Part shown: in pieces, positions 20,286 through 35,406 of the stretch | Layout of the letters: each line of letters opens with the position of its first letter | Numbering within the stretch: the first letter of the stretch is position 1 | IMG/VR virus record: IMGVR_UViG_3300032236_000637 | Span: 1-36,931 of that record | Length of the DNA: 36,931 bases | Source of the DNA: a virus | Reading direction: 5' to 3' (one strand) | The notes under the pieces: model-generated | Told to the model about the DNA's origin: nothing | Seen by the model: the letters and a program-made list of their open reading frames with translations, nothing else | The model's database searches: none | Program-made: the position numbers and the translations under genes

Positions 20286-20476
20286 ACGAAGCACAACAAC
20301 TGATGGGCAGCTTGGGCGCCAAGTCGATTGAACAACGCCGCGCAGAACTGGCCGGCGCCATCACCCGCATGGTCTACAACCAAGCCGTGGCCGAGGCCAA
20401 ACAGCGCGCCGCCGTGCGTGATGCCAACCTAGCGCCAACCCCATCCACGGGCGAACAACCCTCACAAAATGGGTAA
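20282..20476 (+). CDS. Small helical hypothetical protein
   Basis: A 64-residue alanine-rich helical protein with a disordered tail (NLAPTPSTGEQPSQNG). AAGGAGAAAAA precedes the ATG. Its last codons (AAAATGGGTAA) form part of a repeated element and of the hairpin that covers the next start. No family recognised. Confidence 0.6.
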   Translation: MNEAQQLMGSLGAKSIEQRRAELAGAITRMVYNQAVAEAKQRAAVRDANLAPTPSTGEQPSQNG

Positions 20477-20501
20477 TTCCTAATAGAGGAGAATTACCCA
20501 T
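20469..20501 (+). promoter_or_regulatory. Inverted repeat covering the start codon of the small-terminase-like gene
   Basis: ATGGGTAATTC (20469-20479) and GAATTACCCAT (20491-20501) are perfect 11-nt complementary arms around an 11-nt loop. The loop carries most of AGAGGAG, the ribosome-binding site, and the right arm ends in the AT of the ATG. In RNA this would place the start codon in a stem. In DNA it would be a two-fold operator. The left arm belongs to the repeated element AAAATGGGTAATT. Either role is inference. Confidence 0.6.
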
Positions 20502-20907
20502 GACCGAAAAAAAACCTACAAAATCAAGGGCCAAATACCATTACAAGCCCGAAATGTGCGAGCAAATCATTGAACTAGGTAAACAAGGCGCGTCTCAAAA
20601 AGCCATGTTTAGTTCAATTGGAATTTCATCTAGCGCAGCGCAACGATTTAAAAAAGATCATCCGGATTTTGCGGAGGCTCTTGATCGCGCGGTGACAGAA
20701 AGCCAAGCATATTACGAACGACTGATGTTGGCCAACATTGGAAATAAAAACTTCAATTCCCGACTTGTCGAGCTGATTTTGAGGGGTCAATTTTCGGAAA
20801 CATATAGAGAAGATCGAACCCAGAAGGTTGATCTGAAAGCCGAAGTCACGGTGGATTTTTCTAGTGCGGTGAACGAATTGATTGCTCAATTAAAACAAAC
20901 ATCCTGA
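20500..20907 (+). CDS. Terminase small-subunit-like HTH protein
   Basis: A 135-residue protein: an N-terminal helix-turn-helix (CEQIIELGKQGASQKAMF and GISSSAAQRFKKDHPDF, about 19-57) followed by LDRAVTESQAYYERLMLANIG and a C-terminal TYREDRTQKVDL segment. This layout matches phage DNA-packaging small subunits that recognise the packaging site. No large subunit follows within the window, so it could instead be an orphan regulator. Its translation may be gated by the hairpin over its start. A terminator follows it by 18 nt. Confidence 0.65.
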   Translation: MTEKKPTKSRAKYHYKPEMCEQIIELGKQGASQKAMFSSIGISSSAAQRFKKDHPDFAEALDRAVTESQAYYERLMLANIGNKNFNSRLVELILRGQFSETYREDRTQKVDLKAEVTVDFSSAVNELIAQLKQTS

Positions 20908-20925
20908 TAGCTAAATTCAATAGGT

Positions 20926-20951
20926 AAATAGGCCCTTAGGGGCCTATTTTT
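20926..20951 (+). terminator. Rho-independent terminator
   Basis: AAATAGGCCC pairs perfectly with GGGCCTATTT around a 4-nt loop (TTAG) and is followed by a short T tract. It lies 18 nt after the small-terminase-like stop and ends a transcription unit. The A-rich left arm means it could also work on the other strand, but no leftward gene is nearby. Confidence 0.85.
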
Positions 20952-21048
20952 ATGGGTTATTTAATACACGGGGGAAAAGGTTTAGCGGCCCTGTTGATGC
21001 CTTCAACATCAGCTACCCCATCAATCATGCTTTGAAGGGGCACATCAA

Positions 21049-21573
21049 ATGAATCATTGCGTCTACATACATAGAAGAAATGATACCGGCCAAATTTTTT
21101 ACATAGGTGAGGGTTCGGTCAAATATAAAAGACCGTACCAGAAAAGTAAAAGAAACCCGCTTTGGACAAACATAACCAATAAACACGGATACACAGTAGA
21201 GATTTGGTCCTATTGGTCTAATCAAGATCAGGCATGGACGGAAGAAATAAAGCTCATCGCATTTTACCGCGCAATAGGGATTGAACTGTCCAATATGACC
21301 TCCGGAGGGGAAGGCCGGATGCACCATACTCCATCACCAGAAACCCGTAAAAAATTAAGTTTGGCCAGCAAAGGCAAACGAGTCGAACATTTAGAGCAGC
21401 CAGTAAGAGTTTGTTTCTTGAATGAGGAGCAAAAAGATTATATTTCTGTTTCAGAAGCGGCAAGACAATTAGGTGTCAGTCGCAGATTAATCAGAATGTG
21501 GGAAATAGGAATTGCAAGCCCAAAATACCACAACGTGAAATCAGTAACCAAAGTAAAAGGAAAAACGGAATGA
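21049..21573 (+). CDS. GIY-YIG homing endonuclease with NUMOD modules
   Basis: A 174-residue protein. The GIY-YIG signature appears as VYIHRR (5-10) and FYIGEG (17-22), with the expected basic segment and a later catalytic Glu candidate (WTEEIKLI). Downstream are a NUMOD3-like block (SPETRKKLSLASKGK) and a NUMOD1/HTH-like block (SVSEAARQLGVSRRLIRMW) that would read DNA. The gene is A+T-richer than its neighbours and follows a terminator, consistent with a mobile insertion. GAAGGGG precedes the ATG by 8 nt. It overlaps DUF2800 by 4 nt. Confidence 0.85.
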   Translation: MNHCVYIHRRNDTGQIFYIGEGSVKYKRPYQKSKRNPLWTNITNKHGYTVEIWSYWSNQDQAWTEEIKLIAFYRAIGIELSNMTSGGEGRMHHTPSPETRKKLSLASKGKRVEHLEQPVRVCFLNEEQKDYISVSEAARQLGVSRRLIRMWEIGIASPKYHNVKSVTKVKGKTE

Positions 21574-22700
21574 CAGCACACGCACTTTTGGGCGCCAGTT
21601 CATCATCAAGATGGCTTGCTTGCCCACCATCTGCCCGATTAGGGGAGATGTTCCCCGAGCGAAAAAAACCTAAAGGGCAGTTCGACGCCGCCAGTGAAGG
21701 CACAATGGGGCATCAGCTTGCAGAAGCCCAATTAAAGCGTCACTACAGGCAAATATCGGCACCAGAATACAATAAGCTAGTTCAAGAAGTTAAAGACAGC
21801 ATTTATTATTCTGATGAATTTCAGCGCGATGTAGACACATATTGCCTTTATGTTCGATCACAAGTCGGCGATGGTGATGAAGTGTTTTTTGAGCAGCGTG
21901 TGGATTATTCCGAGTGGGTTAATTCGGGCTTCGGTACGTCTGATGTGATCATCATCAACCCCACTAAAATCAGGATCATTGATGCTAAGTTTGGGCGAAA
22001 TTTGGTTTTAGCTAAAGATAATTCGCAGCTACGACTTTACTGTGTTGGTGCGTATGCAAAATTCAAAGAGAAATACCCACATATTCGACAAGCAGAATAT
22101 ACGGTAATGCAACCTCGTTTGGACAACATCAGCACAGAAGAGACAACGATTGAGGAGCTGATAAACTGGGTTGAAGATTTTGTTCGTCCGCGCGCGTTGC
22201 TGGCATGGGAAGGCAAAGGTGAGTTTGCCCCTAGCGATGATGCTTGCATGTATTGCCGAGCTAAAACCCACTGCCGTGCGCGCAGTGATTTTAACGACAT
22301 GGAAGCCATCAAGGATTTCAGGCAACCCGAAACTTTATCCGACAGCGAATTGACTGAAGTTTTTGTTCGAGCATCATCCATCAAGAAATGGCTGGCAGAT
22401 GTTGAGCAATACATCTTGGACCGAGCCACGGATGACGGCGTGGTGCCCGAGGGCTACGAGCTGGGCCGCAGCAAGACCAACCGCAAGATCGAAGACGTTG
22501 AGGCCGCGCGCGCCAAGCTGATCAAGGCCGGGTTCAAAGAGGAAGACATCTTTGCGCCGCCAACACTCAAGTCAATCGCCCAGCTTGAGAAGCTGGACAA
22601 GGAAGGCGTGAACGCCGCTTTGGGCGATTTGATCGTGCGACCAGAGGGCGAAGTCAAACTGGTTCCAGCCAAGAAATCCGCCAAGGCTGATTTCACATAA
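21570..22700 (+). CDS. DUF2800 family nuclease (Cas4/RecB-like)
   Basis: A 376-residue protein beginning MTAHALLGASSSSRWLACPP, the standard DUF2800 start. It carries a PD-(D/E)xK core: Asp125 (GFGTSDVIII) and Asp138-Ala-Lys140 (IIDAKFG). A cysteine cluster (C226, C229, C235 in CMYCRAKTHC) could hold an iron-sulfur centre, as in Cas4/RecB nucleases. It likely trims DNA ends in phage recombination. The start at 21570 is preferred over a longer frame because the family begins there. In related phages it is linked to DUF2815 and polymerase A, as here. Confidence 0.9.
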   Translation: MTAHALLGASSSSRWLACPPSARLGEMFPERKKPKGQFDAASEGTMGHQLAEAQLKRHYRQISAPEYNKLVQEVKDSIYYSDEFQRDVDTYCLYVRSQVGDGDEVFFEQRVDYSEWVNSGFGTSDVIIINPTKIRIIDAKFGRNLVLAKDNSQLRLYCVGAYAKFKEKYPHIRQAEYTVMQPRLDNISTEETTIEELINWVEDFVRPRALLAWEGKGEFAPSDDACMYCRAKTHCRARSDFNDMEAIKDFRQPETLSDSELTEVFVRASSIKKWLADVEQYILDRATDDGVVPEGYELGRSKTNRKIEDVEAARAKLIKAGFKEEDIFAPPTLKSIAQLEKLDKEGVNAALGDLIVRPEGEVKLVPAKKSAKADFT

Positions 22701-22702
22701 CG

Positions 22703-22716
22703 AAAAATGGGTAATT
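22703..22716 (+). promoter_or_regulatory. Repeated element AAAAATGGGTAATT
   Basis: This 14-mer contains AAAATGGGTAATT, also found at 20466-20478 and, on the minus strand, at 35406-35394. Here it is in the 83-nt gap between DUF2800 and DUF2815, 67 nt before the DUF2815 ATG, and is followed by a small hairpin (ACTGGC/GCCAGT, 22723-22745). It could be a promoter or operator of a phage regulator. Confidence 0.5.
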
Positions 22717-22783
22717 GAATTCACTGGCAAATGACAGCCGCCAGTTCTAAGTGCTGTCGATCAAGTATTGAAAGTCAAACAGT

Positions 22784-23299
22784 ATGTCAAAAGTGAATGA
22801 GCGCGTGGTTACAGGTAAAGTCCGTTTTTCTTATGCAAACGTGTTCAAGCCCGTTGCGCAAGAAGAAGGCAAAACACCCAAGTATTCTGTGTCGGTGATC
22901 ATCGACAAGAACGACAAAGAAACCATTGCCAAAATCAACGCGGCATTTGAAAAAGCCAAAGCAGCCAGCGCGGCGTTCTTTGGTGGCACAGTGCCCAAGG
23001 GCCTCAAAGGTGGTTTGCGTGACGGCGATGCCGAAAAAGATGATGCGGCCTATCAAGGTGCATTCTTCATCAACGCAAACTCAGTGCAAAAGCCCGGTGT
23101 CGTTGATGCCAACCTCGAACCAATCTTGGACGCTGATGAGTTCTACAGCGGTTGCTACGGTCGTGTGTCTCTGACATTCTACCCATACAACCAACAAGGC
23201 TCCAAAGGCATCGCATGTGGTTTGGGCAACCTCCAGAAATTGGAAGACGGTGAACGTCTGGGCGGCGGTAAGTCCGCAGCAGAAGACTTCGCAGTCTAA
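22784..23299 (+). CDS. DUF2815 family ssDNA-binding-like protein
   Basis: A 171-residue protein with the DUF2815 pattern: VVTGKVRFSYANVFKP (8-23), PKYSVSVIIDK, a glycine/lysine-rich GGTVPKGLKGGLRDGD loop, ANSVQKPGVVD and SGCYGRVSLTFYPYNQQGSKG near the end. The acidic C-terminus (SAAEDFAV) resembles the SSB tail used to recruit partners. The family is thought to bind single-stranded DNA with an OB fold. It sits beside DUF2800 and upstream of two tRNA genes. No strong Shine-Dalgarno is seen. Confidence 0.88.
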   Translation: MSKVNERVVTGKVRFSYANVFKPVAQEEGKTPKYSVSVIIDKNDKETIAKINAAFEKAKAASAAFFGGTVPKGLKGGLRDGDAEKDDAAYQGAFFINANSVQKPGVVDANLEPILDADEFYSGCYGRVSLTFYPYNQQGSKGIACGLGNLQKLEDGERLGGGKSAAEDFAV

Positions 23300-23308
23300 T
23301 CGGTTCAA

Positions 23309-23384
23309 TGCGGGATAGCTCAGTGGTAGAGCAGGGGACTCATAATCCCAAGGTCGCTGGTTCGAGTCCAGCTCTCCACAACCA
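23309..23384 (+). tRNA. tRNA with CAT anticodon (Met or Ile2), imperfect acceptor stem
   Basis: D arm GCTC/GAGC, anticodon arm GGGGA-CTCATAA-TCCCA (anticodon CAT), and T arm GCTGG-TTCGAGT-CCAGC are all canonical, and CCA is encoded at the end. The variable and T arms resemble tRNA-Ile2 of enterobacteria, which is modified at C34 to read AUA. The acceptor arms (TGCGGGA and about CTCCACA) have a C-A mismatch and an A-C mismatch and one extra T, so the gene could be decaying. Met versus Ile cannot be decided by eye. Confidence 0.7.
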
Positions 23385-23388
23385 AATT

Positions 23389-23462
23389 CAGGGTGTATGA
23401 TAGTGGTAGTCGCCGAGGTTTGGAACCTTGTAGTGTAAGTTCGATTCTTACCACCCTGACCA
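23389..23462 (+). tRNA. tRNA-Pro(TGG)
   Basis: Acceptor arms CAGGGTG/CACCCTG pair perfectly, with C1-G72 and discriminator A73 as in bacterial tRNA-Pro, and CCA is encoded. The anticodon arm is CGAGG-TTTGGAA-CCTTG, giving anticodon TGG. The T arm is GTAAG-TTCGATT-CTTAC. The D stem uses two G-T wobble pairs. It begins 4 nt after the preceding tRNA, so both come from one transcript. Confidence 0.88.
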
Positions 23463-23475
23463 TAAAACTTTTTTG

Positions 23476-23655
23476 ATGGATTTCAAAATGTACACAATTT
23501 CATGCGGGACAGGACCTGCCCCAAGTCATACAGTGAACGTCGAATTGTCCGATGGCACACGAATTTCAATTCAATCACAAGACTTGCAAAAGTTTTTGGA
23601 TTTGCAAACAGCAATCGCTGAGGTCGAAGCTGCTTATGTAGAGGCCGACGAATGA
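23476..23655 (+). CDS. Small hypothetical protein
   Basis: A 59-residue protein. Start choice is uncertain: ATG at 23476 or the one at 23488 (MYTISCGTGP), neither with a Shine-Dalgarno. It has a beta-rich N-terminus (HTVNVELSDGTRISIQ) and a helical end (FLDLQTAIAEVEAAYVEA). It lies 13 nt after tRNA-Pro and overlaps the next gene by 4 nt. No family recognised. Confidence 0.55.
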   Translation: MDFKMYTISCGTGPAPSHTVNVELSDGTRISIQSQDLQKFLDLQTAIAEVEAAYVEADE

Positions 23656-23807
23656 TTGAATTGAAGCTGTCCATTCCCGATGTGAATGCGATTCTTGCCT
23701 CGTTGGGCCGCCAACCCTATGCAGAAGTGAACGATCTGATTGGTCGTATTGTTTCTCAGGCGATGCCCCAAACCAAACCGCAAGAACCTGAAACACAACC
23801 AGCCTAA
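23652..23807 (+). CDS. Conserved small phage protein (VNxILAxLGxxPY type)
   Basis: A 51-residue protein. DVNAILASLGRQPYAEVNDLIG is its core (key residues VN, LxxLG, PY and LI), the pattern of a very common small phage protein of unknown function. The tail is proline/glutamine-rich (MPQTKPQEPETQPA). It overlaps the preceding gene by 4 nt and is followed by a terminator. Confidence 0.7.
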   Translation: MIELKLSIPDVNAILASLGRQPYAEVNDLIGRIVSQAMPQTKPQEPETQPA

Positions 23808-23828
23808 TTAACACTTAGGCAACAAGCC

Positions 23829-23857
23829 GGCCCCGACTAACCCTCGGGGCCTTTTTT
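23829..23857 (+). terminator. Rho-independent terminator
   Basis: GGCCCCGA pairs perfectly with TCGGGGCC around a 7-nt loop and is followed by six T residues. It ends the DUF2815-tRNA unit, 21 nt after the preceding stop and 24 nt before the reductase ATG. No promoter is obvious between it and the reductase, so partial read-through is likely. Confidence 0.92.
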
Positions 23858-23881
23858 CCCTCTAGCACACCAAAAAGAAAA

Positions 23882-25792
23882 ATGACAAATATTCCATTCA
23901 GTACAGTAGGCTATCTCACATACAAACGCACATACTCGCGCCGCTTAAATGAAGCAGACCCCAACAGCCCCACTGAAGAATTTGAAGACACAATTGACCG
24001 GGTAATCAACGCAGCCAACAATCAATTAGGTGTTGGGTTTGATCTTGACGAGCAAGCTCGTTTGCGTGAGTACATGCTGCAACTCAAAGGCTCTGTTGCT
24101 GGCCGCTTTTTGTGGCAATTAGGCACAGATACAGTCAACAAACTTGGCTTATCTAGTCTGCAAAACTGTGCATTTCGTGTTGTCGATAAGCCCGTGGAAC
24201 CATTTACATGGGCGATGGATTTGCTCATGTTGGGTTCCGGCGTGGGCTACAACATCCAAAAAGCAAACGTGGACAAACTATCCCCTGTCAATGAAGCGTT
24301 TAAAACCCCAACACGCCAAGATGACGCTGGTGCCGATTTTATCGTGTCAGACAGTCGTGAAGGTTGGGTTGCTTTGCTGGGCAAAACATTGAAAGCAGCT
24401 TTTCTTGCTCACAAGAGTGGCAAACAAACTTTCACATACTCTACGCAGCTGATTCGCGGTAAAGGGGCCGCGATCAAAGGTTTCGGCGGTACTGCCAGCG
24501 GCCCAGAAGATTTGGTTTGGGGCATCAACAAAATCAGCGAAGTACTTGAGAAACGCGCGGGCCGTAAATTGCGCCCAATTGACGCATTGGACATCATGAA
24601 CATCATTGGCGCCGTTGTGGTGGCGGGCAACGTGCGCCGCAGCGCTCAGATTGCTATTGGGGATGCAGATGATGTTGAATATCTTCTTGCGAAACGCTGG
24701 GATATGGGCAATATTCCATCTTGGCGCGCCATGTCAAACAACTCAGTCGTGTGCAACAATATCAATGATCTGCATGAGTATTTTTGGGATGGATACGAGG
24801 GCAAGGGAGAGCCTTATGGGTTGATCAATTTGAACTTGTCTCGCAAGATTGGTCGGTTGGGAGAAACACAGTATCCTGATCCAGATGTGCAGGGGTACAA
24901 TCCCTGCGCAGAACAATCTTTGGCTGATGGAGAGACTTGCTGTTTGGCTGAAATTTTCTTGCCTAACATCAAATCCAAGGAAGAGTTGTTGGATGTTGCC
25001 ACGATGTTGTACCGCATCAACAAACATAGTTTGGCTTTGCCTTGCCATCTACCAATCACAGAAGAAATTGTTCATCGCAACATGCGAATGGGCATCGGTA
25101 TCACCGGCTTCTTGCAATCAACCGAAGAGCAAAAAAGTTGGCTGAAAGAGACGTATGAAAAATTGCGCAACTATGATGAATGGTATAGCGCCAAACACGG
25201 GTTCAGCAAGTCAATCAAGTTGACAACCGTTAAACCCTCTGGCACGTTGTCTTTGTTGCCCGGCGTGACCCCCGGTGCGCACCCTGCGTATGCTCGATAT
25301 ATGATCCGCCGCATTCGTATCAGTGCCAATCACAACTTAGTACAAGTGTGTCGTGACCATGGCTATCCTGTTGAATATCAACAAAACTTTGATGGCACAG
25401 AAGACCATAGCACAGTGGTTGTATCATTCCCTTTTAGCCACCCAGAACACGCTGTGTTGGCCAAAGATATGACCGCACTTGACCAGTTGGAAACTGTAAA
25501 ATGGCTTCAAGAAAACTGGAGCGACAATAGTGTCAGCTGCACGGTGTATTACCGCAAAGAAGAATTGCCAGAAATCCGCAAGTATCTGAAAAAGAACTAC
25601 AAAAATGGACATAAATCACTGTCTTTCTTGTTGCATTCGGATCACGGGTTTAAGCAAGCGCCCCTTGAGGAAATCACCAAAGAACAGTATGATGAGCTTG
25701 TGGCTAAAACACAGTTGATCACATCAATCAGTGAAGCAAACATCGGTTTGGATGACGCTGAATGCGCTAACGGCGCTTGTCCTATTCGTTGA
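23882..25792 (+). CDS. nrdJ: Class II (adenosylcobalamin-dependent) ribonucleotide reductase
   Basis: A 636-residue monomeric-type class II reductase that makes deoxynucleotides for phage DNA synthesis. NCAFR (95-99) carries the first active-site cysteine. NPCAEQ (340-345) holds the thiyl-radical Cys342 and Glu344. The C-terminal CANGACPIR (Cys628 and Cys633) matches the redox pair of the Lactobacillus RTPR type, which is reduced by thioredoxin. It is about 100 residues shorter than RTPR. No separate small subunit is needed or seen. A host supply of coenzyme B12 is implied. The start is preceded only by A-rich sequence. Confidence 0.92.
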   Translation: MTNIPFSTVGYLTYKRTYSRRLNEADPNSPTEEFEDTIDRVINAANNQLGVGFDLDEQARLREYMLQLKGSVAGRFLWQLGTDTVNKLGLSSLQNCAFRVVDKPVEPFTWAMDLLMLGSGVGYNIQKANVDKLSPVNEAFKTPTRQDDAGADFIVSDSREGWVALLGKTLKAAFLAHKSGKQTFTYSTQLIRGKGAAIKGFGGTASGPEDLVWGINKISEVLEKRAGRKLRPIDALDIMNIIGAVVVAGNVRRSAQIAIGDADDVEYLLAKRWDMGNIPSWRAMSNNSVVCNNINDLHEYFWDGYEGKGEPYGLINLNLSRKIGRLGETQYPDPDVQGYNPCAEQSLADGETCCLAEIFLPNIKSKEELLDVATMLYRINKHSLALPCHLPITEEIVHRNMRMGIGITGFLQSTEEQKSWLKETYEKLRNYDEWYSAKHGFSKSIKLTTVKPSGTLSLLPGVTPGAHPAYARYMIRRIRISANHNLVQVCRDHGYPVEYQQNFDGTEDHSTVVVSFPFSHPEHAVLAKDMTALDQLETVKWLQENWSDNSVSCTVYYRKEELPEIRKYLKKNYKNGHKSLSFLLHSDHGFKQAPLEEITKEQYDELVAKTQLITSISEANIGLDDAECANGACPIR

Positions 25793-25800
25793 GGCTACGC

Positions 25801-26247
25801 ATGAAAAGAAACAGGGAAGGGTGGTTGGTTTCAGAAACGCATAGAGAGTGTACCAAATGCGGTAACATCTTTATGAAGAAAAATAAAATGACCCTCTGCC
25901 CTGCATGCAATTCTTCTCGGGTAAAAGCGAGGACAACGCAGCAAAAAATGTGGGCGCGGGCAAAGTCTCGCGCCCAAACAAAAGGATTGGAGTTTGATTT
26001 AGTCGTGGAAGATATTGTGATTCCAACACATTGCCCAATAATGGGCGTTGCATTAGAAGTACACAAAGGCAAGTCTGGCGCGTATAAGTCATCCCCATCG
26101 TTAGATCGAATTGACAACTCGAAAGGATACACCAAAGATAATGTGTGGGTCATTTCTCAGTTGGCAAACGCGATGAAAGGGTCGGCAACACCTTCAGAAA
26201 TGGAGACGTTTGCTTTGTGGGTTTTAACAAGGAGCGAAAATGAGTGA
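25801..26247 (+). CDS. HNH-type endonuclease with N-terminal zinc ribbon
   Basis: A 148-residue protein. CTKCG and CPACN near residues 17-38 form a zinc ribbon. Then comes the HNH-like core CPIMGVAL, SPSLDRID (about 100-107) and GYTKDNVWVIS, as in the HNH protein at 17531. A C-terminal helix follows (SEMETFALWVL). It sits directly after the reductase, a favoured target of phage homing endonucleases. A+T-rich compared with the reductase. Start ATG at 25801 follows a weak GAGG. Confidence 0.78.
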   Translation: MKRNREGWLVSETHRECTKCGNIFMKKNKMTLCPACNSSRVKARTTQQKMWARAKSRAQTKGLEFDLVVEDIVIPTHCPIMGVALEVHKGKSGAYKSSPSLDRIDNSKGYTKDNVWVISQLANAMKGSATPSEMETFALWVLTRSENE

Positions 26248-26482
26248 ATTGACTTTTGGAGAAAAAGCATGTGGAGTTTCATTTAACCCCGGGGGCAACC
26301 CTGTGGTTGATGACATCAAGCGCAAATGCGCGGAACTGATCGATGGGCTCGAAACCCTGCGCCAGTTGTCCGCCAAAGAGAACACATCGGACGCAGAAGT
26401 ACGCCGCATGTTGAGCATTGCAATCACGGAAATCCAGACAGCTCAAATGTGGGCCGTCAAAGCAGTAACTTGGAGTCACTAA
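26240..26482 (+). CDS. Probable Acb2/Tad1-family anti-defence protein
   Basis: An 80-residue two-helix protein. FNPGGNPVVDDIKRKCAELID (key parts FNPxGNP and KxxCAELID) is followed by MLSIAITEIQTAQMWAVKA (about 57-75). This matches, from memory, the Acb2/Tad1 hairpin family of phage sponges that sequester cyclic nucleotides (CBASS) or cyclic ADP-ribose signals (Thoeris). The invariant-looking pattern is a polar 'hhAhTxhxxAxMWAhKA' second helix. The target signal cannot be told from sequence. It overlaps the HNH stop by 8 nt. Confidence 0.62.
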   Translation: MSELTFGEKACGVSFNPGGNPVVDDIKRKCAELIDGLETLRQLSAKENTSDAEVRRMLSIAITEIQTAQMWAVKAVTWSH

Positions 26483-26483
26483 C

Positions 26484-26663
26484 ATGGCACGTATTTTTCT
26501 TATCTTGGTCTTGGTCGCCGCGTGGATTGTTGCTGCCGTGGGCTGGGTCAACAATTTGGTCGCGTTGATCCACACAACAGACATGCAGATTACCACCATG
26601 TTTGTCTTGCGTATTGTGGGTTTGTTTCTTTTCCCCTTGGGCGCTGTTTTAGGGTACTACTGA
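26484..26663 (+). CDS. Two-span membrane protein (59 aa)
   Basis: A 59-residue protein with two hydrophobic segments (FLILVLVAAWIVAAVGWV and MFVLRIVGLFLFPLGAVLG) around a short loop (LIHTTDMQ). TGGAGTCACTAAC precedes the ATG and it directly follows the anti-defence-like gene. Role unknown. Confidence 0.6.
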   Translation: MARIFLILVLVAAWIVAAVGWVNNLVALIHTTDMQITTMFVLRIVGLFLFPLGAVLGYY

Positions 26664-26664
26664 T

Positions 26665-26787
26665 ATGAAGCTCGACATCATTGAAATTCTGGGTGGGTTG
26701 ACTTCTATTGCGGTCAGCTTGTGGTTTCTCTCCGTTTGTGCGGGCTTGATGATTCGCCTCACTCGCTTTGCTTGGAGCGCGTTCTAA
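26665..26787 (+). CDS. Membrane microprotein (40 aa)
   Basis: A 40-residue protein with one hydrophobic stretch (ILGGLTSIAVSLWFLSVCAG) and a basic end (MIRLTRFAWSAF). Its ATG follows the preceding stop by 1 nt, and its own stop overlaps the next ATG (TAATG). Role unknown. Confidence 0.5.
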   Translation: MKLDIIEILGGLTSIAVSLWFLSVCAGLMIRLTRFAWSAF

Positions 26788-26888
26788 TGAGCAAGGGGTC
26801 TAAGCCAAGACCCATCCCGGAGCCTGAAAAGTTCCGGGACAATTGGGACAAAATTTTCGGAAAGAAAAAAGATGACAAACCCTCTTGA
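26787..26888 (+). CDS. Conserved tiny phage protein (KGSKPRP...FGKKK)
   Basis: A 33-residue basic protein, MSKGSKPRPIPEPEKF then DNWDKIFGKKK. This matches a very common tiny phage protein with the frame KGSKPRP ... F-x-x-x-W-D-x-I-F-G-K. It starts on the overlapping TAATG of the preceding gene and is often found beside DUF3310, as here. Function unknown. Confidence 0.7.
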   Translation: MSKGSKPRPIPEPEKFRDNWDKIFGKKKDDKPS

Positions 26889-27093: not shown

Positions 27094-27099
27094 GGAGTT

Positions 27100-27166: not shown

Positions 27167-27199
27167 CAACGCGGATTCGTCCGCAGCCAAGGAGCAAAA

Positions 27200-29143
27200 A
27201 TGAAGATTTTGAGCATTGACTTTGAGACACGCAGCCGGATTGATTTGAAGGATCGTGGGCTTGATGTCTATTCCAACCACCCCAGCACGGAGATTGTTTG
27301 TTTGGCCGCCGGCTTTCGCGCCGAGCACACTGACGGTTGGTTCACCGACAACATTCCTGAGTGGGTACTCACTTACGTGGCCAAAGGCGGCCTGATTCGT
27401 GCTTGGAACGCGGCGTTCGAGTGGCACATCTGGAATCGGGTTGGCGCGCGGCTTGGTTGGCCTGAGCTTAAGCTCGAACAGTGCATTGACGCGATGGCCA
27501 TTGCAGCGGCCAACAACCTGCCACAGGACTTGGACACGGCTGGTGAAGTCACCAATGCCCAATTCCAAAAAGACAAGCGCGGCAAGAAGCTGATCCAGCT
27601 GTTGAGCAAGCCCCAAAAAGACGGCACGTTCAACACCGATCCAGCGTTGCTGGAAGAGTTCCGCCAGTACTGCATCCGTGACGTGCAGACCGAGATTGCC
27701 GTTGTTGAGCCCTTGCGTCCCCTTTCAGCACACGAGCAACGTGTCTGGGTGCTTACCCAGAAGATCAACCAGCGTGGCGTGGCCGTCGATCCACTGGAGC
27801 TGGCCCGCGTTGACGCCGTGGTTCAGCGTGAAATGGACTCAATCAACATGCAAATCATGGGGTTGACAGACGGCATCGAGGTGAGCAAGCGCGACCAGTT
27901 GAAAAACTGGTTCTACGACCATGGGTTGGACTTGCCCGATATGACCGCAGAAACCATCGAGAAGGCCGCCAAAGAGGGTCACGCAGATGAGACTGTCAAC
28001 CAAGTGCTCAAGTTGCGCATGGAGGGCGCCAAGACCTCTGTGACCAAGTTTGCCAAGATGGCTGAGATGCAGGTTGACGGACGCATCCGAAACGGTCTTG
28101 TTTACCACGGCGCGTCCACGGGCCGCTGGGCCAGTCGCGGGATCAACCTGCAAAACATTGCACGTCCGGCAATTTGGATGACGGACCAAGACATCAATGA
28201 CGCGGTTGAATTGGCTTTGGTGCTCGGGGACTATGAGGCTATGCGCGCGCGGTTTGGCGACAAGACAATGGAGGCATGCTCGTCGATTGTCCGCAACGCC
28301 ATCAAGGCGCCAGAGGGCTATGTGTTCGTCGATGCCGACTTGAGTTCCATCGAGAACCGCGTCTCTGCTTGGATGGCCAACCAAGTTGACAAGCTGGAGC
28401 TGTTCCGTTTGGGGTTGGACGAGTACAAAACCTTTGCATCAACCAGCCTGTACTACGTGCCCTATGAAGAGGTCACGAAGGATCAGCGCCAAGTCAGCAA
28501 GTCGGCGGTGCTTGGGTGCATGTTTGGACAAGGAGCCAAAGGGCTCGTTGCCTATGCGGAATCAATGGGGGTGATTTTGACCTTGGAACAGGCTGAAAAT
28601 GCCGTGAACGCCTATCGTTTGGCGTATGGTCGGGTGAAGAATTGCTGGTATCAAATGGGGCAAGCCGCCATTGACTGCATAAAAAATCCCGGACAACCAT
28701 TCAAGGCTGGCCGGGTCACGATGAAGGTGGCAAACAACGTGCTGTGGATGCAGTTGCCCTCTGGGCGCTTAATTTGCTGGCAAGCACCCGACATCCGTAA
28801 GGAGCTGACACCATGGGGAAAACCCGCCGATGTCATTTACGTCACCAGCCAAAACACCTTCACTCGCAAGTGGGGGCGCAATAAGCTGATCGGTAGCTCG
28901 ATCTTTCAAAGTAGCGTACAAGGAACAGCACGAGATTTCCTTGCTGAATCTGCGCTTGCTTTGGACGCTGAAGGTATACCTGTAGTCAACCTGATCCATG
29001 ATGAAAGCCTCACATTGAGTAAAGTGGAGGATGCCAAATACACAGAAGAGCGGCTTATGACTATTCTGACAACTCCGCCAAAGTGGGCACCTGATTTCCC
29101 TCTTGCGGCTGAGTCGTGGGTCGATACACGCTACAGAAAATAA
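27200..29143 (+). CDS. DNA polymerase, family A, with 3'-5' exonuclease
   Basis: A 647-residue replicative polymerase. The N-terminal proofreading domain has ILSIDFETRS (Asp7 and Glu9) and a later IRDVQTE block. The polymerase motifs are A VDADLSSIE (about 377-385), B RQVSKSAVLGCMFGQG and C HDE (600-602). There is no 5'-3' exonuclease domain. The ATG at 27200 with AAGGAG 5 nt upstream is preferred over a longer frame beginning in the terminator. It ends the rightward block and faces the virion operon across a bidirectional hairpin. Confidence 0.93.
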   Translation: MKILSIDFETRSRIDLKDRGLDVYSNHPSTEIVCLAAGFRAEHTDGWFTDNIPEWVLTYVAKGGLIRAWNAAFEWHIWNRVGARLGWPELKLEQCIDAMAIAAANNLPQDLDTAGEVTNAQFQKDKRGKKLIQLLSKPQKDGTFNTDPALLEEFRQYCIRDVQTEIAVVEPLRPLSAHEQRVWVLTQKINQRGVAVDPLELARVDAVVQREMDSINMQIMGLTDGIEVSKRDQLKNWFYDHGLDLPDMTAETIEKAAKEGHADETVNQVLKLRMEGAKTSVTKFAKMAEMQVDGRIRNGLVYHGASTGRWASRGINLQNIARPAIWMTDQDINDAVELALVLGDYEAMRARFGDKTMEACSSIVRNAIKAPEGYVFVDADLSSIENRVSAWMANQVDKLELFRLGLDEYKTFASTSLYYVPYEEVTKDQRQVSKSAVLGCMFGQGAKGLVAYAESMGVILTLEQAENAVNAYRLAYGRVKNCWYQMGQAAIDCIKNPGQPFKAGRVTMKVANNVLWMQLPSGRLICWQAPDIRKELTPWGKPADVIYVTSQNTFTRKWGRNKLIGSSIFQSSVQGTARDFLAESALALDAEGIPVVNLIHDESLTLSKVEDAKYTEERLMTILTTPPKWAPDFPLAAESWVDTRYRK

Positions 29144-29146
29144 AAG

Positions 29147-29185
29147 AGGCTGGAGGGCGGCTCAGGCCGCTCTTCTTCCAAGCCT
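29147..29185. terminator. Bidirectional terminator between convergent operons
   Basis: AGGCT (29147-29151) pairs with AGCCT (29181-29185); inside, GGA pairs with TCC and GGGCGGC pairs with GCCGCTC (one G-T pair) around a TCAG loop. This makes a stem of about 15 bp. On the minus strand the stem is followed by TCTTTTATTTT, a good T tract for the leftward virion operon. On the plus strand the T tract is weak. Confidence 0.75.
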
Positions 29186-29189
29186 AAAA

Positions 29190-30551
29190 TCACTGGCCCG
29201 CAGGTGGCTGCGGATTAATTTTGTTCATGATGTAGTCTTTGAGGTAGTCCGCACCTTTTGCGGCTACCGCAACACCAGCACCAATCGCTTTTGTTTTTGG
29301 GTTGTGAGAGTACGTTGCTGCGGCTGCGCCACCGGATGTCAGCGCGTCCAAGCCCGCCCGCAACCAATCGTTTTGTTGTGCCGCCAAAATAGCGTCTTTG
29401 GCTTGCTGACCCATGATGGCGCCAGTGCCCGCATTCAGCGCGCTACCAATCCGGCTGCCAGCCTCGATGTGGGGCACAGGCTGGGGAACTGGTGCGGTAG
29501 GGCGCAACAGTGGTTTGGGCATTGGGAAGTTTGGCACTTTGGGTGCTTGGGGCGCGGGCGCAGCGGGGCGTGTGGCCAAAACATCTTGGCCAAGCCACAA
29601 ACCAGTGGTTGGGTCGGGCGCGGCGCCGGGCATCATGGCTTGAGCTTGACGCACACGACCAACGCCTTGAGTGCCCGCTTGCTGGGCCTCTGCTTGGCTC
29701 AACACGTTGCGGCCTTCCACGTCAGCAATATCACCACCAAACTGGCCACGAATCCAATTGCGTGGGTCTTGGCCGGCGGCCTTTTGCGCGGTTTGGTCTG
29801 CGGCTTTTTGCACCGCAGCGGCATGCTCCATTGCTGCCTTGCGCAACTCAAGTGCGTATTTGTCTTGTCGGTCGAGGTTTTTCAGTTGCTCTTGGTGTTG
29901 CAACTGGGCCGCGCGGTTGGCATCGCGCACCGAATGCGCATTGGCTGTTTGCGCGCGCACGTTGGCTTCAGTGCGTTTGCGTTCAGCGCCGCCCATGGCG
30001 CCAGCAAGCGCGCCCGCGCTGCCGGACATGGCATCGGTGACATCCATGTCGCGGCCTTGATCCACGGTTTGTGTTGTGTCATTGATGCCAGACAAATCCA
30101 ACGGCTCAATGTCTTCAACGTCGGTGCTGAATTGTGTGCTAGTAGGGCCTGCCATATCAGCATATCCTTTTACTTTTTGAATGTGTGTTTTGGCTTCGGG
30201 ACTCATCTCGCCGCCTTTGAAATACGGGCTGTTGGGGCCATCATGGTAGGCCACCAAAGTTTTGTCCCAATCGCCATTGTGCTTGTCGAGCAACTGGCGC
30301 GCATAGCGCATGCCGCCGTCGATGTTTTCATCTTCGTCGTAGCGGTTGACGCCCATGTCTTTGGCGGCTTTACGACCAAGCATCATCACGCCCACAGGAC
30401 CCGTCTTCGAGTGTTTGTTTTGATCAAATCCACTCTCTTGCATTGCCATACCAAAAGCAAGTGTTTTGGGCACACCATACTTTTCAGCAGCGGCCATCAC
30501 CTTTTCAGCGGTGGCGCGCTGCTTTTCATTGAGCGAGTCAAACATTCCCAT
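29190..30551 (-). CDS. Virion protein with N-terminal lytic transglycosylase domain
   Basis: A 453-residue protein. The first 115 residues form an SLT-type transglycosylase domain: FGMAMQESGF with catalytic Glu39, GPVGVMMLG, then YARQLLDKHNGDW and LVAYHDGPN. The rest is helical (about 195-265), then alanine/proline-rich, ending with a glycine-rich stretch (SGGAAAAT) and a basic tail. Such proteins sit in the virion and cut peptidoglycan when DNA is injected. It is the last gene of the leftward operon; its ATG overlaps the preceding stop (TGATG). A GTG one codon upstream is an alternative start. Confidence 0.82.
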   Translation of the reverse strand: MGMFDSLNEKQRATAEKVMAAAEKYGVPKTLAFGMAMQESGFDQNKHSKTGPVGVMMLGRKAAKDMGVNRYDEDENIDGGMRYARQLLDKHNGDWDKTLVAYHDGPNSPYFKGGEMSPEAKTHIQKVKGYADMAGPTSTQFSTDVEDIEPLDLSGINDTTQTVDQGRDMDVTDAMSGSAGALAGAMGGAERKRTEANVRAQTANAHSVRDANRAAQLQHQEQLKNLDRQDKYALELRKAAMEHAAAVQKAADQTAQKAAGQDPRNWIRGQFGGDIADVEGRNVLSQAEAQQAGTQGVGRVRQAQAMMPGAAPDPTTGLWLGQDVLATRPAAPAPQAPKVPNFPMPKPLLRPTAPVPQPVPHIEAGSRIGSALNAGTGAIMGQQAKDAILAAQQNDWLRAGLDALTSGGAAAATYSHNPKTKAIGAGVAVAAKGADYLKDYIMNKINPQPPAGQ

Positions 30552-32134
30552 CACTGATCACCGGGGTATTTAGCATCCGCGCGGCCAAACACTTTGGCTG
30601 TGCGGTAGAACTGTTTCTTGCGCATGTCGGCCAGTTCAGGGCTGTCTTGGAATTCGCTCCAACGATGGCCAGCTTTCTTCATTTCTTTCCACAAGCGATC
30701 TTGCTCCACGCGGTTGCGGGCTTCGAGTTCAACACCTTTGGCCATTTGCATCAGCGAAGCAGGCGTCGAATGCGCGCGGTCGCCAATCACTTCTGCCATC
30801 AAGCGACGCTCGTTGTCAGAAACAGACCCTTGGCCCTTGAGCACTTTCTGGCTGTAGTCCAGTTGCATTTTTGTCAAGTCACGACCCAAACGAACGTATG
30901 CGTCCATGACATTTTTGTCTTTGGCCGCTGGGTCGAGTTTGACCAACGTGTCTTGCAGGCCGGGGATTTTGACAGCGCCGAACTCACCCAATTGAACGCC
31001 TTGGTCTACGAGACCCAAGAACGCGCTCATGGCGCCGGGCTTGGCCAACTTGCCCAACACGCCGTTTGAAGATTTGATGTCTTGCTGCATGCGTTGAGCC
31101 AATGCGGCATTGTCAGGAGCGTTCATCGCTTCTGTTTCATGTGCAGTTTGTTGCGCGGCATAGTTCTCGCCCACTTTGCGCGACTCAGCCTCCATGCCCG
31201 CAGCTTTTGATTTGGCTTCAGCCTCGCGGATTGCCAAGTCTTGTTTGGAGCCGGGGATAAATCCCGTTGACGTGGGAGCTGGCGCAGGTGCCGCAGGTTG
31301 AGCTGGGGCAACAGAAGGAGCCGAAGGCAGCGCGCCACTACGCGCAGCTGGCGCAGCTGGCGCCGCAGGCGCTGGGGCAGCTGGTAAAGCGCCAGATTGG
31401 GTTGTGGGCACAGCCTGCCATGGGGTTTGTTGGACCGTTCCACCGGGCACGTTCATTTCATGAGGCTGGAATGCGCCGGCGCCGGCGGCATGCAACACCA
31501 TGGCGCGGTTCCATGGGTCTGAGCCGGGCACAACACCAGCAGACACCAACTCGCGTTGTGTGTCGGTCAGCTTGCGCAATTCAATGGCTTTGGTGATTGC
31601 CGCTTGTGGATTGACGCGGTGCAGCGCGTAAAGTTGCAATTGTTGTTCTTGGGTCAGGGGCACTTGGCCGCCAAGGATCGGGGCCAAATCAGCTTGGGCT
31701 GATCCTTGGGTCGGCGCAGCTCCTCGCGCTTTCGCTTGAGGTTGCGCGGCGCCTGCGCCAATGATGCGGTTGAACACCGCTTGATCTTGTGCTTGTTGGG
31801 CTTGTTGTGAATCGATGTTGGCCATAGCAACACGAGCTTGTGTGATGTCGTTGTTGCGTTGCTCTTGTGTTTGGTTGTACGCTTGCTGTTGTGCAGCCCA
31901 ACCAGAGGTGGGGCCAGCAAACCGAGCCATGCTTTCTGTGAAGTTGCCCAACAAGCTGTTTTTCTCAGCCTCGCGTTGTTGGATGATCTTCATCAGCTGG
32001 TCTTTGACTTCTTGGCTTTGAGGACCACCAAGACTCACTTTCTTTTGGCCAGCAATACTCAAGCCACTGACCACAGGCGTGTCAGCGGCTTGATCAACTG
32101 CATCCAATCCACTTTGATTTTCTGTGTCTGCCAT
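30551..32134 (-). CDS. Probable internal virion / ejection protein
   Basis: A 527-residue protein with a glutamine-rich helical N-terminal part (about 85-115), an alanine/proline-rich linker (about 245-295) and a helical, charged C-terminal domain (QDIKSSNGVLGKLAKPGAM to the end). The composition is that of internal core or ejection proteins of phage capsids or tails. No enzyme motif is seen. It lies between a low-complexity structural protein and the transglycosylase-domain protein, which supports a shared ejection role. Confidence 0.6.
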   Translation of the reverse strand: MADTENQSGLDAVDQAADTPVVSGLSIAGQKKVSLGGPQSQEVKDQLMKIIQQREAEKNSLLGNFTESMARFAGPTSGWAAQQQAYNQTQEQRNNDITQARVAMANIDSQQAQQAQDQAVFNRIIGAGAAQPQAKARGAAPTQGSAQADLAPILGGQVPLTQEQQLQLYALHRVNPQAAITKAIELRKLTDTQRELVSAGVVPGSDPWNRAMVLHAAGAGAFQPHEMNVPGGTVQQTPWQAVPTTQSGALPAAPAPAAPAAPAARSGALPSAPSVAPAQPAAPAPAPTSTGFIPGSKQDLAIREAEAKSKAAGMEAESRKVGENYAAQQTAHETEAMNAPDNAALAQRMQQDIKSSNGVLGKLAKPGAMSAFLGLVDQGVQLGEFGAVKIPGLQDTLVKLDPAAKDKNVMDAYVRLGRDLTKMQLDYSQKVLKGQGSVSDNERRLMAEVIGDRAHSTPASLMQMAKGVELEARNRVEQDRLWKEMKKAGHRWSEFQDSPELADMRKKQFYRTAKVFGRADAKYPGDQ

Positions 32135-32142
32135 GTTTGTCC

Positions 32143-33060
32143 TTACTGGATGATTGGGTTGCCGCTTGCGTCAACCGCTGTGGCGTTGGTATCTGAACCA
32201 GTAGTGTACCCTGAATAGTTGCCGCCACCACCATACGAACTTGTGTCGATTGGTTGGTAGGTGCCAGTGTAAGTTGGTGTGTTGGATGGGGACAACAAGT
32301 TTGCCAACCAGCTTGGCAAGTTGGCTGATGTGCCCGTGCCTGTGAGTGCGTTCAAAGCACCTTGACCCAAGTTGCCCAAGTTGTTGACAAGATTGCCCGC
32401 TTGTGTCAAGTTGGCTGTCAAACCTTGGTTTGTCGATGTGGTTGTTGTCTTCGGCACAGTTTGACCAATGTTGCTCAATGCTGTGGCCGCTTGGTTGACC
32501 GCAGGCAGCGCGCCGAGCTGTTGGAAGTTGGCGGTGTTGATGCCCGTAGTGCCGTATTGTGATTCGAGGTTGCCAGCGCCAGCCTCTGCTTGGATGGCTT
32601 GAGTCAATGCGTTCTCAGCAGTCACGTTTTGGTTCGCTGCCAAGTTGGTCAACGCGCCGGCCTTGGCCGCGTCGATTGCTGTTTGATCACGCAAAGAGCC
32701 TGTTTGGCCAGAGCCAATGCCAGCGGCGCCCTGTGTTGCTGCAATGGTCGGCAGCATTTGGTTGAGCTGTGCGTTCTCGGAAGCAAACAGCCCGCCAAGG
32801 GTTGTGTTGGTGTTGGGTTGGCCGTTTGGCAGCCATGGGTTGGCGATGCCTGATGCAATGTTTTGCAATGTGGCAGTGCCTTGGGTGAAAGGGTTTGTGC
32901 CGGAACCCAGCGATTCAACCACTCCCTGAGCCACGGTGCTTTGGGGGTTGATCGCGTTGGACAGCGCGCCAGTGGCGGCCTGACCAATGTTTTGCTGTGC
33001 AGAAGTGAACCACGATGGCAGCGTGGTCGCTGATGTGGATGAACTGTCAAAAGCACTCAT
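32143..33060 (-). CDS. Virion structural protein (T/N/A/G-rich)
   Basis: A 305-residue protein low in charge and rich in T, N, A, Q and G. An N-terminal PSWFTSAQQNIGQAATGA block and a C-terminal PSWLANLLSP and YTGTYQPID block recur in structural phage proteins of this position. It overlaps the upstream 652-residue gene by 4 nt (ATGA on the minus strand). It may belong with the next two genes to an ejection complex. No membrane helix is certain. Confidence 0.6.
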   Translation of the reverse strand: MSAFDSSSTSATTLPSWFTSAQQNIGQAATGALSNAINPQSTVAQGVVESLGSGTNPFTQGTATLQNIASGIANPWLPNGQPNTNTTLGGLFASENAQLNQMLPTIAATQGAAGIGSGQTGSLRDQTAIDAAKAGALTNLAANQNVTAENALTQAIQAEAGAGNLESQYGTTGINTANFQQLGALPAVNQAATALSNIGQTVPKTTTTSTNQGLTANLTQAGNLVNNLGNLGQGALNALTGTGTSANLPSWLANLLSPSNTPTYTGTYQPIDTSSYGGGGNYSGYTTGSDTNATAVDASGNPIIQ

Positions 33061-35015
33061 GCTCTGTCCTTTTTCAAATAATCTAACGGCGACTGGTGCG
33101 CAGGAGGCGGCAGTTCGCTGGGGGAAGTTGAATGGGCGCGCGAACGGATCGCTTTCACCATTTCATCAAGTTTGGACGCGCCAGCGTCGGATGATCCGTT
33201 GCCCAACGTAGCCACCACGTCGGCGGGCAACACAAACTCGTCGCGCGCCACCATGGCTGGGATGCTGTCCGAAGTACCATCACCATCGCCTTTGACGTGC
33301 ATGTTGCCCAAACCCCCTTGTGAATGGAATTGGGGTTCGCCCGCTGGGTGTGCCATTGTCAATCCACCTTGCGCGTAGGATGCCAAAGGCTCCACGCTTT
33401 GGTTGGGATCAATGTAGTCGTTGCCCGTGGGGGCTGTGGCCACAATGGTGGGCGCATAGGCGCTTGTTGGGGTGTACGTTGGTGCTGTGGTCACATCGGC
33501 TTGCAAAGGAGCCAAATCGCCGTCACCCGCGCCATGGAAAATGGATGTTAAGAGAGACAAATCGCCGAAGTCCGCGGTTTTTGATCGTGGTGTTTGAAAC
33601 CCAGCCAAGGAGAACAGCAAAGGATTCAACGGGGCTGGCGCTGTGTCTGAAATCAGGGATGAGTTTTGTTGCGCGGGTTGCGCAACTTGCTGAACTGGCA
33701 TTGTTGCATTGCCTGATGACGATCCACCCAATTTGGGCAAGCCAGCAATCGCGCCGATAGGCAGCAAGTTTACCGACAGGCTTGGTGTTGGGGTTTTGGT
33801 CGATGTATCGGTTGGCGCAACCGGTGTGCCCGTCACGTTCGGGTTGTTGATGATCGAGCCCGGATCGCCCAGATTAGGAGACGCGCCCGTTGCTGTGGTG
33901 CCAATCGCGCTGGTTGTTCCATCGGTCGTGGGCACGGTGACACCTTGGCCGCCGTTCATGGAAGTCAGGTTGGGCGACTGCGAATATGTTGCGTTGCCTG
34001 TGTCGGCAGCCACTGGCGTGGTGTTCGCCAGATTGTAGGACATGCTTGTGTCCAGAGGTACTTGTGAGCCAGTCACAGGCGCCAATGAGGTGTTCAGCGG
34101 CGTTGTGTCCACCACGGGCGACACGGACTCGACAATACCAGTGTCGGCAGGCGGCGTGGCCGCAGGCACTTGCACGTTGGCCGCAGGGGTTGTGTCAACT
34201 GGCGCGGGCGTGACCGCAGAGGTTGTGTCAACTGGCGCGGATGTGACCGCAGGGGTCAGCGCCGTGGTCGGGCCGGTATCTACTGGCGCTTGAACGCCAG
34301 AGGTTGTGTCAACCGAAGGAGTCAGCGAAGTGTCCAGCGGTGGCACGTAGGTCGATGCTGCACTTGGGGTATCTGTTGGTGTTCCGCCAGACGCGCCGCC
34401 AGAGTTGACTGCGCTGTTAAGCGCGCCAGTGGCATAGTTTGAAGCTGCTGCGTTAAGCGCGCCAGCGATTGGGTTGCCACCAGTCAACGCCGCCTGTGTT
34501 GCGCCGGAGGCTGCCGCACTGGCTGCGTTTGCCAAATCAGGGGAGATTGCTGTTGATCCGTCCGCTGCGGGTGCACTCAATGCGCCGCCAACGTACTGGC
34601 CTGCTTGAATGCCTGCTTCGGAGACTGCGGCGCCGGTGAGTGCTTGACTCAAACTGCCGCCATGGGCAATTGTATCCGCCGCCGAGATAAGCGGCAGCAA
34701 CTCCACGTTGCCTGTGGCCACAGCGGCCACTTTGGCTACCGTCCCGATTGGGTCATTGGTCGCACTGGTAATAGCCTTATCAATTACGTTGCTTGCTACA
34801 TTGGCTACATTGGCTACAGAGCTTACAACATCCGCACCAGCACTAGCAACATTGGACAGTGCATTACCCACGGTATTAACAGCGGAACTTCCAACATCAC
34901 TTATCGCACTAACCGCTGAAGATACCGTCCCGAACAATTTGATTTTTCTATCCCCACAATGTTCGAACGCACCAAGGGGCAGATCAGGGATGTCTAAAAC
35001 ATAATGTTGCTTCAT
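33057..35015 (-). CDS. Large repetitive virion protein with conserved C-terminus
   Basis: A 652-residue protein. An alanine/valine-rich N-terminal third (SAVSAISDVGSSAVNTVG) could interact with membranes. The middle (about 215-420) is built of irregular repeats with PVDTT, and the DNA there has a 33-nt tandem repeat. The C-terminus (GDGDGTSDSIPAMVARDEFV and LPADVVATLGNGSSDAGA) is a conserved module seen in many phage structural proteins. It is probably an internal, tail or ejection protein; the exact place is not clear. Confidence 0.65.
   Translation of the reverse strand: MKQHYVLDIPDLPLGAFEHCGDRKIKLFGTVSSAVSAISDVGSSAVNTVGNALSNVASAGADVVSSVANVANVASNVIDKAITSATNDPIGTVAKVAAVATGNVELLPLISAADTIAHGGSLSQALTGAAVSEAGIQAGQYVGGALSAPAADGSTAISPDLANAASAAASGATQAALTGGNPIAGALNAAASNYATGALNSAVNSGGASGGTPTDTPSAASTYVPPLDTSLTPSVDTTSGVQAPVDTGPTTALTPAVTSAPVDTTSAVTPAPVDTTPAANVQVPAATPPADTGIVESVSPVVDTTPLNTSLAPVTGSQVPLDTSMSYNLANTTPVAADTGNATYSQSPNLTSMNGGQGVTVPTTDGTTSAIGTTATGASPNLGDPGSIINNPNVTGTPVAPTDTSTKTPTPSLSVNLLPIGAIAGLPKLGGSSSGNATMPVQQVAQPAQQNSSLISDTAPAPLNPLLFSLAGFQTPRSKTADFGDLSLLTSIFHGAGDGDLAPLQADVTTAPTYTPTSAYAPTIVATAPTGNDYIDPNQSVEPLASYAQGGLTMAHPAGEPQFHSQGGLGNMHVKGDGDGTSDSIPAMVARDEFVLPADVVATLGNGSSDAGASKLDEMVKAIRSRAHSTSPSELPPPAHQSPLDYLKKDRA
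34188..34253. repeat. 33-nt tandem repeat x2 in the virion gene
   Basis: Two adjacent 33-nt units (34188-34220 and 34221-34253) share all but three positions, both beginning GGTTGTGTCAACTGGCGCGG. On the coding (minus) strand they encode the VTxAPVDTT-type repeats of the 652-residue protein. The frame is kept, so unit number may vary between relatives. Confidence 0.8.
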
Positions 35016-35374
35016 ACTTTCGCCATCCAGTTATATTGGTGACGATCTGAATGTTCTACTTTGACGCCAAGACGTTTCAACATTTGAACAATTCCGGGGT
35101 TGTCCGCTTTGCCATAGACGCAGCGGATAGGTGTTTTGCGAATGACGCTGATGAAATAAGGCAAGCTCTTCACCAGCTGCATTGGAGAATCTTGAGTAAA
35201 AAGATGCAGTTCAGCATCTTTCTTGTCGATGTTTCGGACCAGCAGGACACTGTTGCCTGCTGACATGATGTGGCCTTTACCAGATTGGACCACAGAAGCG
35301 ACAAAAGCCAATACCTTTTGGGCATCGACTCCGTGTTGTTGGCAATCAGCGGTGATAATTTCTGAAGGTGTCAT
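35012..35374 (-). CDS. Hypothetical protein of the virion operon
   Basis: A 120-residue protein, MTPSEIITADCQQHGV to YNWMAKV. It has a helical N-terminus, a LHLFTQDSPMQLVKSLPYF block and a C-terminal CVYGKADNPGIVQMLKRLG block followed by EHSDRH. The latter recalls acetyltransferase-like folds of small phage proteins, but the coenzyme A loop is not evident. Function unknown. TAGGA lies 9 nt upstream and it overlaps the next gene by 4 nt. Confidence 0.65.
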   Translation of the reverse strand: MTPSEIITADCQQHGVDAQKVLAFVASVVQSGKGHIMSAGNSVLLVRNIDKKDAELHLFTQDSPMQLVKSLPYFISVIRKTPIRCVYGKADNPGIVQMLKRLGVKVEHSDRHQYNWMAKV

Positions 35375-35393
35375 GTGCGTATATCCTATAGAA

Positions 35394-35406
35394 AATTACC
35401 CATTTT
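35394..35406 (-). promoter_or_regulatory. Repeated element AAAATGGGTAATT (minus strand)
   Basis: Minus-strand copy of the element also found at 20466-20478 and 22703-22716. It begins on the stop codon of the 77-residue gene and ends 19 nt before the ATG of the 120-residue gene, so it sits in the only gap of the virion operon. TTTTCTATAGGATATAC follows, which could include a -10-like TATAGGATA. Role as promoter or operator is inference. Confidence 0.5.

Follow-up and report, generated by a model that had tools for sequence, protein, structure and literature searches.

In the virus record IMGVR_UViG_3300032236_000637 of IMG/VR (36,931 nucleotides, nt; the whole stretch analyzed is called here the window), a 13-base element repeated on both strands appears to be the middle part, from about −20 to −8, of a start signal of ~40 bases for packaging and virion genes. 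The complete signal is bipartite, its two blocks keep a fixed spacing, it is placed mainly before late genes and it occurs together with the genes of two small sigma-like proteins. On the basis of sequence comparison, the element is very probably a promoter, and a promoter that is likely to depend on a phage-encoded sigma factor. The explanation that we cautiously prefer as a whole is that a split phage sigma factor on the host RNA polymerase (RNAP) reads these late promoters. The host RNAP would take up a phage sigma built of two separate proteins and would then read the promoter, a 178-amino acid (aa) protein with sigma regions 1.2-3 recognizing the −10 part (TGnnTAAnT, and TATA before the G start) and a 97-aa region-4-like protein recognizing the −35 part (GGnCGnAA). 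Promoters read in this way, located on both strands, would turn on the genes for the small terminase, packaging, capsid and tail.

The exact 13-mer, AAAATGGGTAATT, occurs three times in the window, at 20466-20478 and 22704-22716 on the plus strand and at 35406-35394 on the minus strand, versus no match in 100 dinucleotide-preserving shuffles of the window, which bears out the repetition on both strands that an earlier note on this DNA had described. A near copy with one mismatch, AAAATGGGTTATT, is located at 13971-13983 (+), and the window holds no further copies at up to two mismatches. The 13-mer ends ~21 nt upstream of the small terminase start (copy at 20466), ~67 nt upstream of the gene of a DUF2815/Enc34-type single-stranded DNA-binding protein (SSB; copy at 22704) and ~19 nt upstream of a virion operon gene (copy at 35406, minus strand). 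The element at 20466 shares bases with the stop codon of the small open reading frame (ORF, 20282-20476) that precedes it.

Relatives were gathered with the SSB protein as query, which yielded 61 viral loci, and larger contigs were then fetched. In 752 kb of relatives the 13-mer, allowing up to one mismatch, gave 35 matches versus 2 for the reversed control; most close relatives carry it, located upstream of the small terminase, and there it is followed by CTnTATAGGA, both together reading AAAATGGGTAATTCTnTATAGGA. Larger contigs of the window's lineage mostly contain 2-6 sites each, in the same orientation as the downstream gene, and the genes behind them are those of the small and large terminase and of the capsid and tail regions. 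A second block emerged when 34 and 24 non-redundant sites, from this lineage and from a sister lineage described below, were aligned with 40 nt of upstream sequence. The alignment revealed GGnCGnAA, which had played no role in the selection of sites; in 25/34 and 17/24 sites the GGnCG block keeps a single offset, the other offsets averaging 0.03.

The order within a site is GGnCGnAA, then TG with TAATTC, then TATA with G. Taking the G after TATA as +1, GGnCGnAA starts at −37, TG occupies −16/−15, the −10 hexamer extends from −12 to −7 and TATA starts at −4. This agrees with bipartite promoters of the sigma70 family, in which ~17-18 bp separate a conserved −35 block from a conserved −10 block, and the layout, with its predicted start, is that of a sigma-dependent promoter. 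The +1 was placed at this G because a later start would truncate the tRNA-Thr gene that begins 3 nt past it in the relatives G013 and G012, and also because the hairpins of variable sequence present in many terminase leaders start directly behind GGA. The hexamers are not those of host sigma70 (TTGACA/TATAAT-like), as the sites have GGnCGnAA and TAATTC or TAAGTA, and a scan for simple sigma70 consensus promoters, like a scan for terminators, remained at chance level.

The full pattern is completed in the window only at 20449-20489 (+) and 35423-35383 (−) (Table 1). The copies at 22704 and 13971 are not canonical, because they lack the GGnCG block and TATAG, and words like them were found at the same places in G001, G005 and G007 only, among the relatives checked. 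The proposal in the earlier note that a promoter specific to the phage is connected with the sigma-like proteins gains good support by comparison for the small terminase and virion operon sites and does not extend to 22704 and 13971. The operator reading offered as its alternative is disfavoured by the motif standing directly ahead of tRNA genes in relatives and by a geometry that corresponds to a −35/−10 promoter.

The relatives G014, G015 and G016, with a related gene neighbourhood, lack sites of the window type and carry TTTTTTGCATAAGTAGTTATAGG at matching places, with seven sites at up to three mismatches in G015. This motif was found by reading upstream of the G015 small terminase, an all-pairs repeat search of that genome being swamped by its terminal repeats. 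Both promoter types are in register and have TGnnTAAnTnnnTATAGG in common; the sister lineage has the −35 block of the window's lineage and a different −10 (TGCATAAGTAG), ahead of the same kinds of genes. In the sister lineage the −10 stands without GGnCG at five sites ahead of DUF2800 genes; at two of them the downstream gene was confirmed by its ORF, at the other three by a gene start that they have in common. There are hints of a second promoter class of this kind, without the −35 block, near replication genes.

Matrices of 41 and 40 columns gave no matches in Markov nulls or in reversed sequences of the genomes tested. In 17 genomes, sites above 25 bits numbered 49, the genes behind them being mainly late. 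An equal frequency inside coding regions, the outcome that the earlier note had named as contrary to its proposal, was not found: 43 of the 49 sites lie mostly outside ORFs of at least 100 aa, which cover ~70-94% of each genome. A sense-strand site accompanies the 97-aa gene in 74 of the 76 loci that carry this gene, and none was detected in control loci with a distant sigma (0/31, 447 kb) or with a distant DUF2815 protein (0/11). Caulobacter phage RW and MW202545 possess a related portal protein, but the motif and both sigma genes are absent from them. A near-identity search of phage records provided nothing useful.

The 178-aa protein contains regions 1.2, 2 and 3 with nothing after them and aligns to SigA/RpoD up to region 3 only (mean predicted local distance difference test score, pLDDT, of its model 80.8), so that it has region 2 and lacks region 4, as one half of a split sigma would. 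Its identity across the set is 35-58%, and the sigma of the sister lineage is a diverged one (35-57% identity). In sigma70 the residues W433, W434, Q437 and T440 read the −10; at the equivalent places of the phage protein they are replaced. The 97-aa gene, 8 kb apart from the former, overlaps the end of an SNF2-type gene. It is present in 16 of the 17 genomes of the group examined, the remaining contig, G016, being partial; the protein is encoded on 467 contig stretches and had no match among 50,697 phage records. Residues 36-97 align structurally best to sigma region 4 (sigmaE at the top, Z 8.6), and 5 of 12 members give weak matches to Pfam Sigma70_r4_2. EKYWR, the putative recognition helix, hardly varies across the two lineages. 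The constancy of this helix and of the −35 block, together with the divergence of both the 178-aa protein and the −10, supports, without proof, that the 178-aa protein reads the −10 and the 97-aa protein the −35, and it is to this assignment that we lean. Near the N-terminus of the 97-aa protein, in a region of predicted disorder, residues 11-19 form the invariant stretch RLSDEE.DP, which may be a short motif for binding.

A two-step programme, which we consider rather doubtful, would have the 178-aa subunit, alone or weakly helped, fire the −35-less replication promoters, and the free region-4 subunit, on its arrival, open the GGnCG promoters of packaging and virion genes. The −35-less promoters would be those before DUF2800 genes in the sister lineage and perhaps 22704 and 13971 in the window. 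As the readers of −10 and −35 would be in separate genes they could therefore diverge separately, the −10 and its reader having changed while the −35 and its reader were kept.

The −35 block is often the 5′ arm of a hairpin pairing with the spacer (GGGC..GCCC), in excess of shuffled spacers in both lineages, as at G002 47155, G013 66885, G003 11948, and G015 49282 and 40105; a T-tract is added at some of these sites, and promoter and terminator may therefore overlap. A tRNA-Thr(TGT) gene lies 3 to ~8 nt after the small-terminase promoter in G013 (38499), G012 (24034) and G011 (15569), where other relatives have the leader hairpin. Leaders that follow the promoter behind the major capsid gene (G002 41608, G003 11965, G005 41203) have the words GGCTC/AGCTC and GAGAC in common and look structured; an Rfam search of the G005 leader stretch gave no match. 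The Rfam abiF RNA (RF03085) was matched at L169 5603-5639, in a leader behind a sister-type promoter.

Several known systems bear comparison. The late genes of SPO1 are activated by gp34 with gp33 at the bipartite promoter CGTTAGA-N17-19-GATATT (PMC3601020). The present case would resemble it in the use of two phage proteins at a bipartite −35/−10 promoter of late genes, and differs from it in the promoter sequences and in that SPO1 infects Bacillus. T4 late transcription uses gp55, gp33 and the clamp gp45 on the host RNAP, with no −35 conservation (PMC7892883). A region-2-like sigma and a separate protein acting on the host RNAP for late genes would be common to both; however, T4 has no conserved −35 block and its gp33 alone does not bind DNA, whereas the group studied here has sigma regions 1.2-3 and a conserved −35 block, so that its sites are not late promoters of the T4 type, which have a −10-like element only. 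In the SigO-RsoA pair of Bacillus subtilis, sigma regions 4 and 2 are in separate cooperating proteins (PMC8103513). In these phages a protein with region 2 and a putative region-4 protein would likewise be separate, and their genes co-occur; unlike the cellular pair, which is encoded together, the two genes are phage-borne, distant from each other and would serve late genes. Phages phiEco32 and 7-11 resemble this group in having few, well conserved promoters before structural genes; theirs fall into long late and short middle classes, with the motifs TGTGATGTTATA in 7-11 and tAATGTAtA in phiEco32 (PMC4331800). Those published motifs, of 9-12 bp, have no −35 block, and a single sigma protein is involved. 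No description of this phage group was found in the literature on two-subunit phage sigma factors. A region 1.2-3 sigma with a free region-4-like protein in uncultured phages would thus be a new combination.

Several observations weigh against a split sigma as reader of these promoters. A strong TATA just ahead of the start is commoner in T7-type promoters. The region-4 assignment comes from a 12-sequence model with a mean pLDDT of 70.5, and Foldseek alone gave no significant E-value with the 97-aa model; because of this and of the weak Pfam matches, the identification of residues 36-97 as sigma region 4 is good but unproven. The matrices derive in part from loci later scored and many sites are orthologous, so that the empty controls should weigh more heavily than the count of 74/76. 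Finally, the window record is a fragment and another factor could lie outside it, but complete relatives show none. The closest alternative would keep the 178-aa sigma on the host RNAP and make the 97-aa protein a gp33-like co-activator on the beta-flap, GGnCG being read otherwise or through DNA structure. T4 gp55/gp33 does operate without −35 conservation (PMC7892883), and the frequent pairing of the −35 block with the spacer would suit a structural role. Nevertheless, GGnCG stays the same where the sequence that would pair with it changes, a hairpin is missing at several sites and the −37 offset suits region 4, so this alternative is regarded as unlikely. Less probable still is that the 97-aa protein, bound at GGnCG, activates a promoter used by the host sigma70 holoenzyme, the phage sigma being employed at other promoters. 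It would agree with the resemblance of the 97-aa protein to a DNA-binding helix-turn-helix fold and with the TG ahead of the T-A start of a −10, but TAATTC and TAAGTA make poor −10 hexamers for sigma70, no host factor would call for the change of the −10 from one phage lineage to the other, and GGnCG overlaps the −35 position itself.

The remaining alternatives dispense with sigma or with a promoter. TATAGGA is strongly like the start regions of T7-type promoters, which are likewise contiguous blocks ending in TATA before a G start, and the upstream block is lineage-specific, as would be expected of a 13-bp specificity block of a T7-like single-subunit RNAP. However, a −35 block at −37 is foreign to such promoters, and the polymerase gene was not found, either with the PF00940 profile in 22 records, a search in which the control was silent too, or in G005. 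The silence of the control leaves the argument to the ORF inventory of G005, a genome with an exact 105-bp terminal repeat, where the large ORFs are identified or lie among virion genes and no large early ORF is unassigned; a T7-like polymerase is held to be very improbable. An equally slight probability is given to an element that acts on translation or at the RNA level close to ribosome-binding sites, for instance a start-codon hairpin. It would draw on the window sequence AATTACCCAT, which lies ahead of the terminase start and is an inverted copy of ATGGGTAATT, the repeat spanning 20466-20501, and on TATAGGAG, which can double as a ribosome-binding site. But neither the other window sites nor the near relative G001 show the inverted repeat, the motif stands before tRNA genes and the −35 block keeps a fixed upstream distance; a translational operator at 20466-20501 was dropped, as no other site has the repeat. 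Chance or a repeated-sequence artefact might be invoked because the window has just two canonical copies and the other two misfit the full motif, but it is scarcely credible when matching places are conserved in many genomes and the sister lineage has a parallel motif.

Table 1. Promoter sites, related copies and associated genes in the window
Feature	Coordinates	Strand	Basis or remark
Predicted canonical late promoter of the small terminase	20449..20489	+	47.3 bits, full matrix; syntenic copies in relatives
Parts of the small terminase promoter	GGGCG 20449-20453; TG 20470-20471; TAATTC 20474-20479; predicted start G 20486	+	Start predicted
Predicted canonical late promoter in the virion operon	35423..35383	−	46.5 bits; matching sites in G001, G003, G005, G013
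Parts of the virion operon promoter	GGCCG 35423-35419; TG 35402-35401; TAATTT 35398-35393; TATA 35390-35387; predicted start G 35386	−	Start predicted
Small terminase gene, behind the first promoter	20500..20907	+	PHROG terminase small subunit, 9e-10
Gene without family match, first virion gene behind the second promoter	35012..35374	−	ORF
Exact 13-mer before the DUF2815/Enc34-type SSB gene, not canonical	22704..22716	+	Without −35 block and TATAG
Copy with one mismatch ahead of the small gene at 14005, not canonical	13971..13983	+	Without −35 block and TATAG
178-aa phage sigma factor, proposed −10 reader	10545..11081	+	Pfam and PHROG matches
97-aa region-4-like protein, proposed −35 reader	19353..19646	+	Structural alignment

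Other features of the window and of its relatives were also observed. The copy at 13971 is overlapped by a possible 18-codon ORF (MKNHIVKNGLLREQKGQQ, 13951-14007, plus strand) with a Shine-Dalgarno-like AGGAGG, which runs up to where the 14005 gene starts. In L169 (7444-7504) and in G015 (18140-18205, L093) the DUF2815 gene is preceded by the Rfam DUF2815 RNA (RF03084), which at the corresponding place of the window stayed below threshold. Two tandem tRNA genes (23310-23380 and 23389-23459, plus strand) are located between the DUF2815 and ribonucleotide reductase genes of the window. The B12-dependent ribonucleotide reductase (23882-25792, plus strand) looks unlike the 622-aa enzyme that G001, G005 and G013 have in the equivalent position, and a gene replacement is possible.

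The scan of bacterial genomes produced one contig, of a betaproteobacterial metagenome-assembled genome, and the host is therefore only hinted at. The split phage sigma and its promoters would provide a transcription programme, open to testing, for a considerable group of uncultured phages, which we take to be freshwater phages. Lineages that differ in one promoter half would amount to a natural experiment on DNA reading by sigma domains and on the ways in which phages redirect the host polymerase. Moreover, laboratory strains could be given an orthogonal expression tool made of the two small proteins and their defined promoters.

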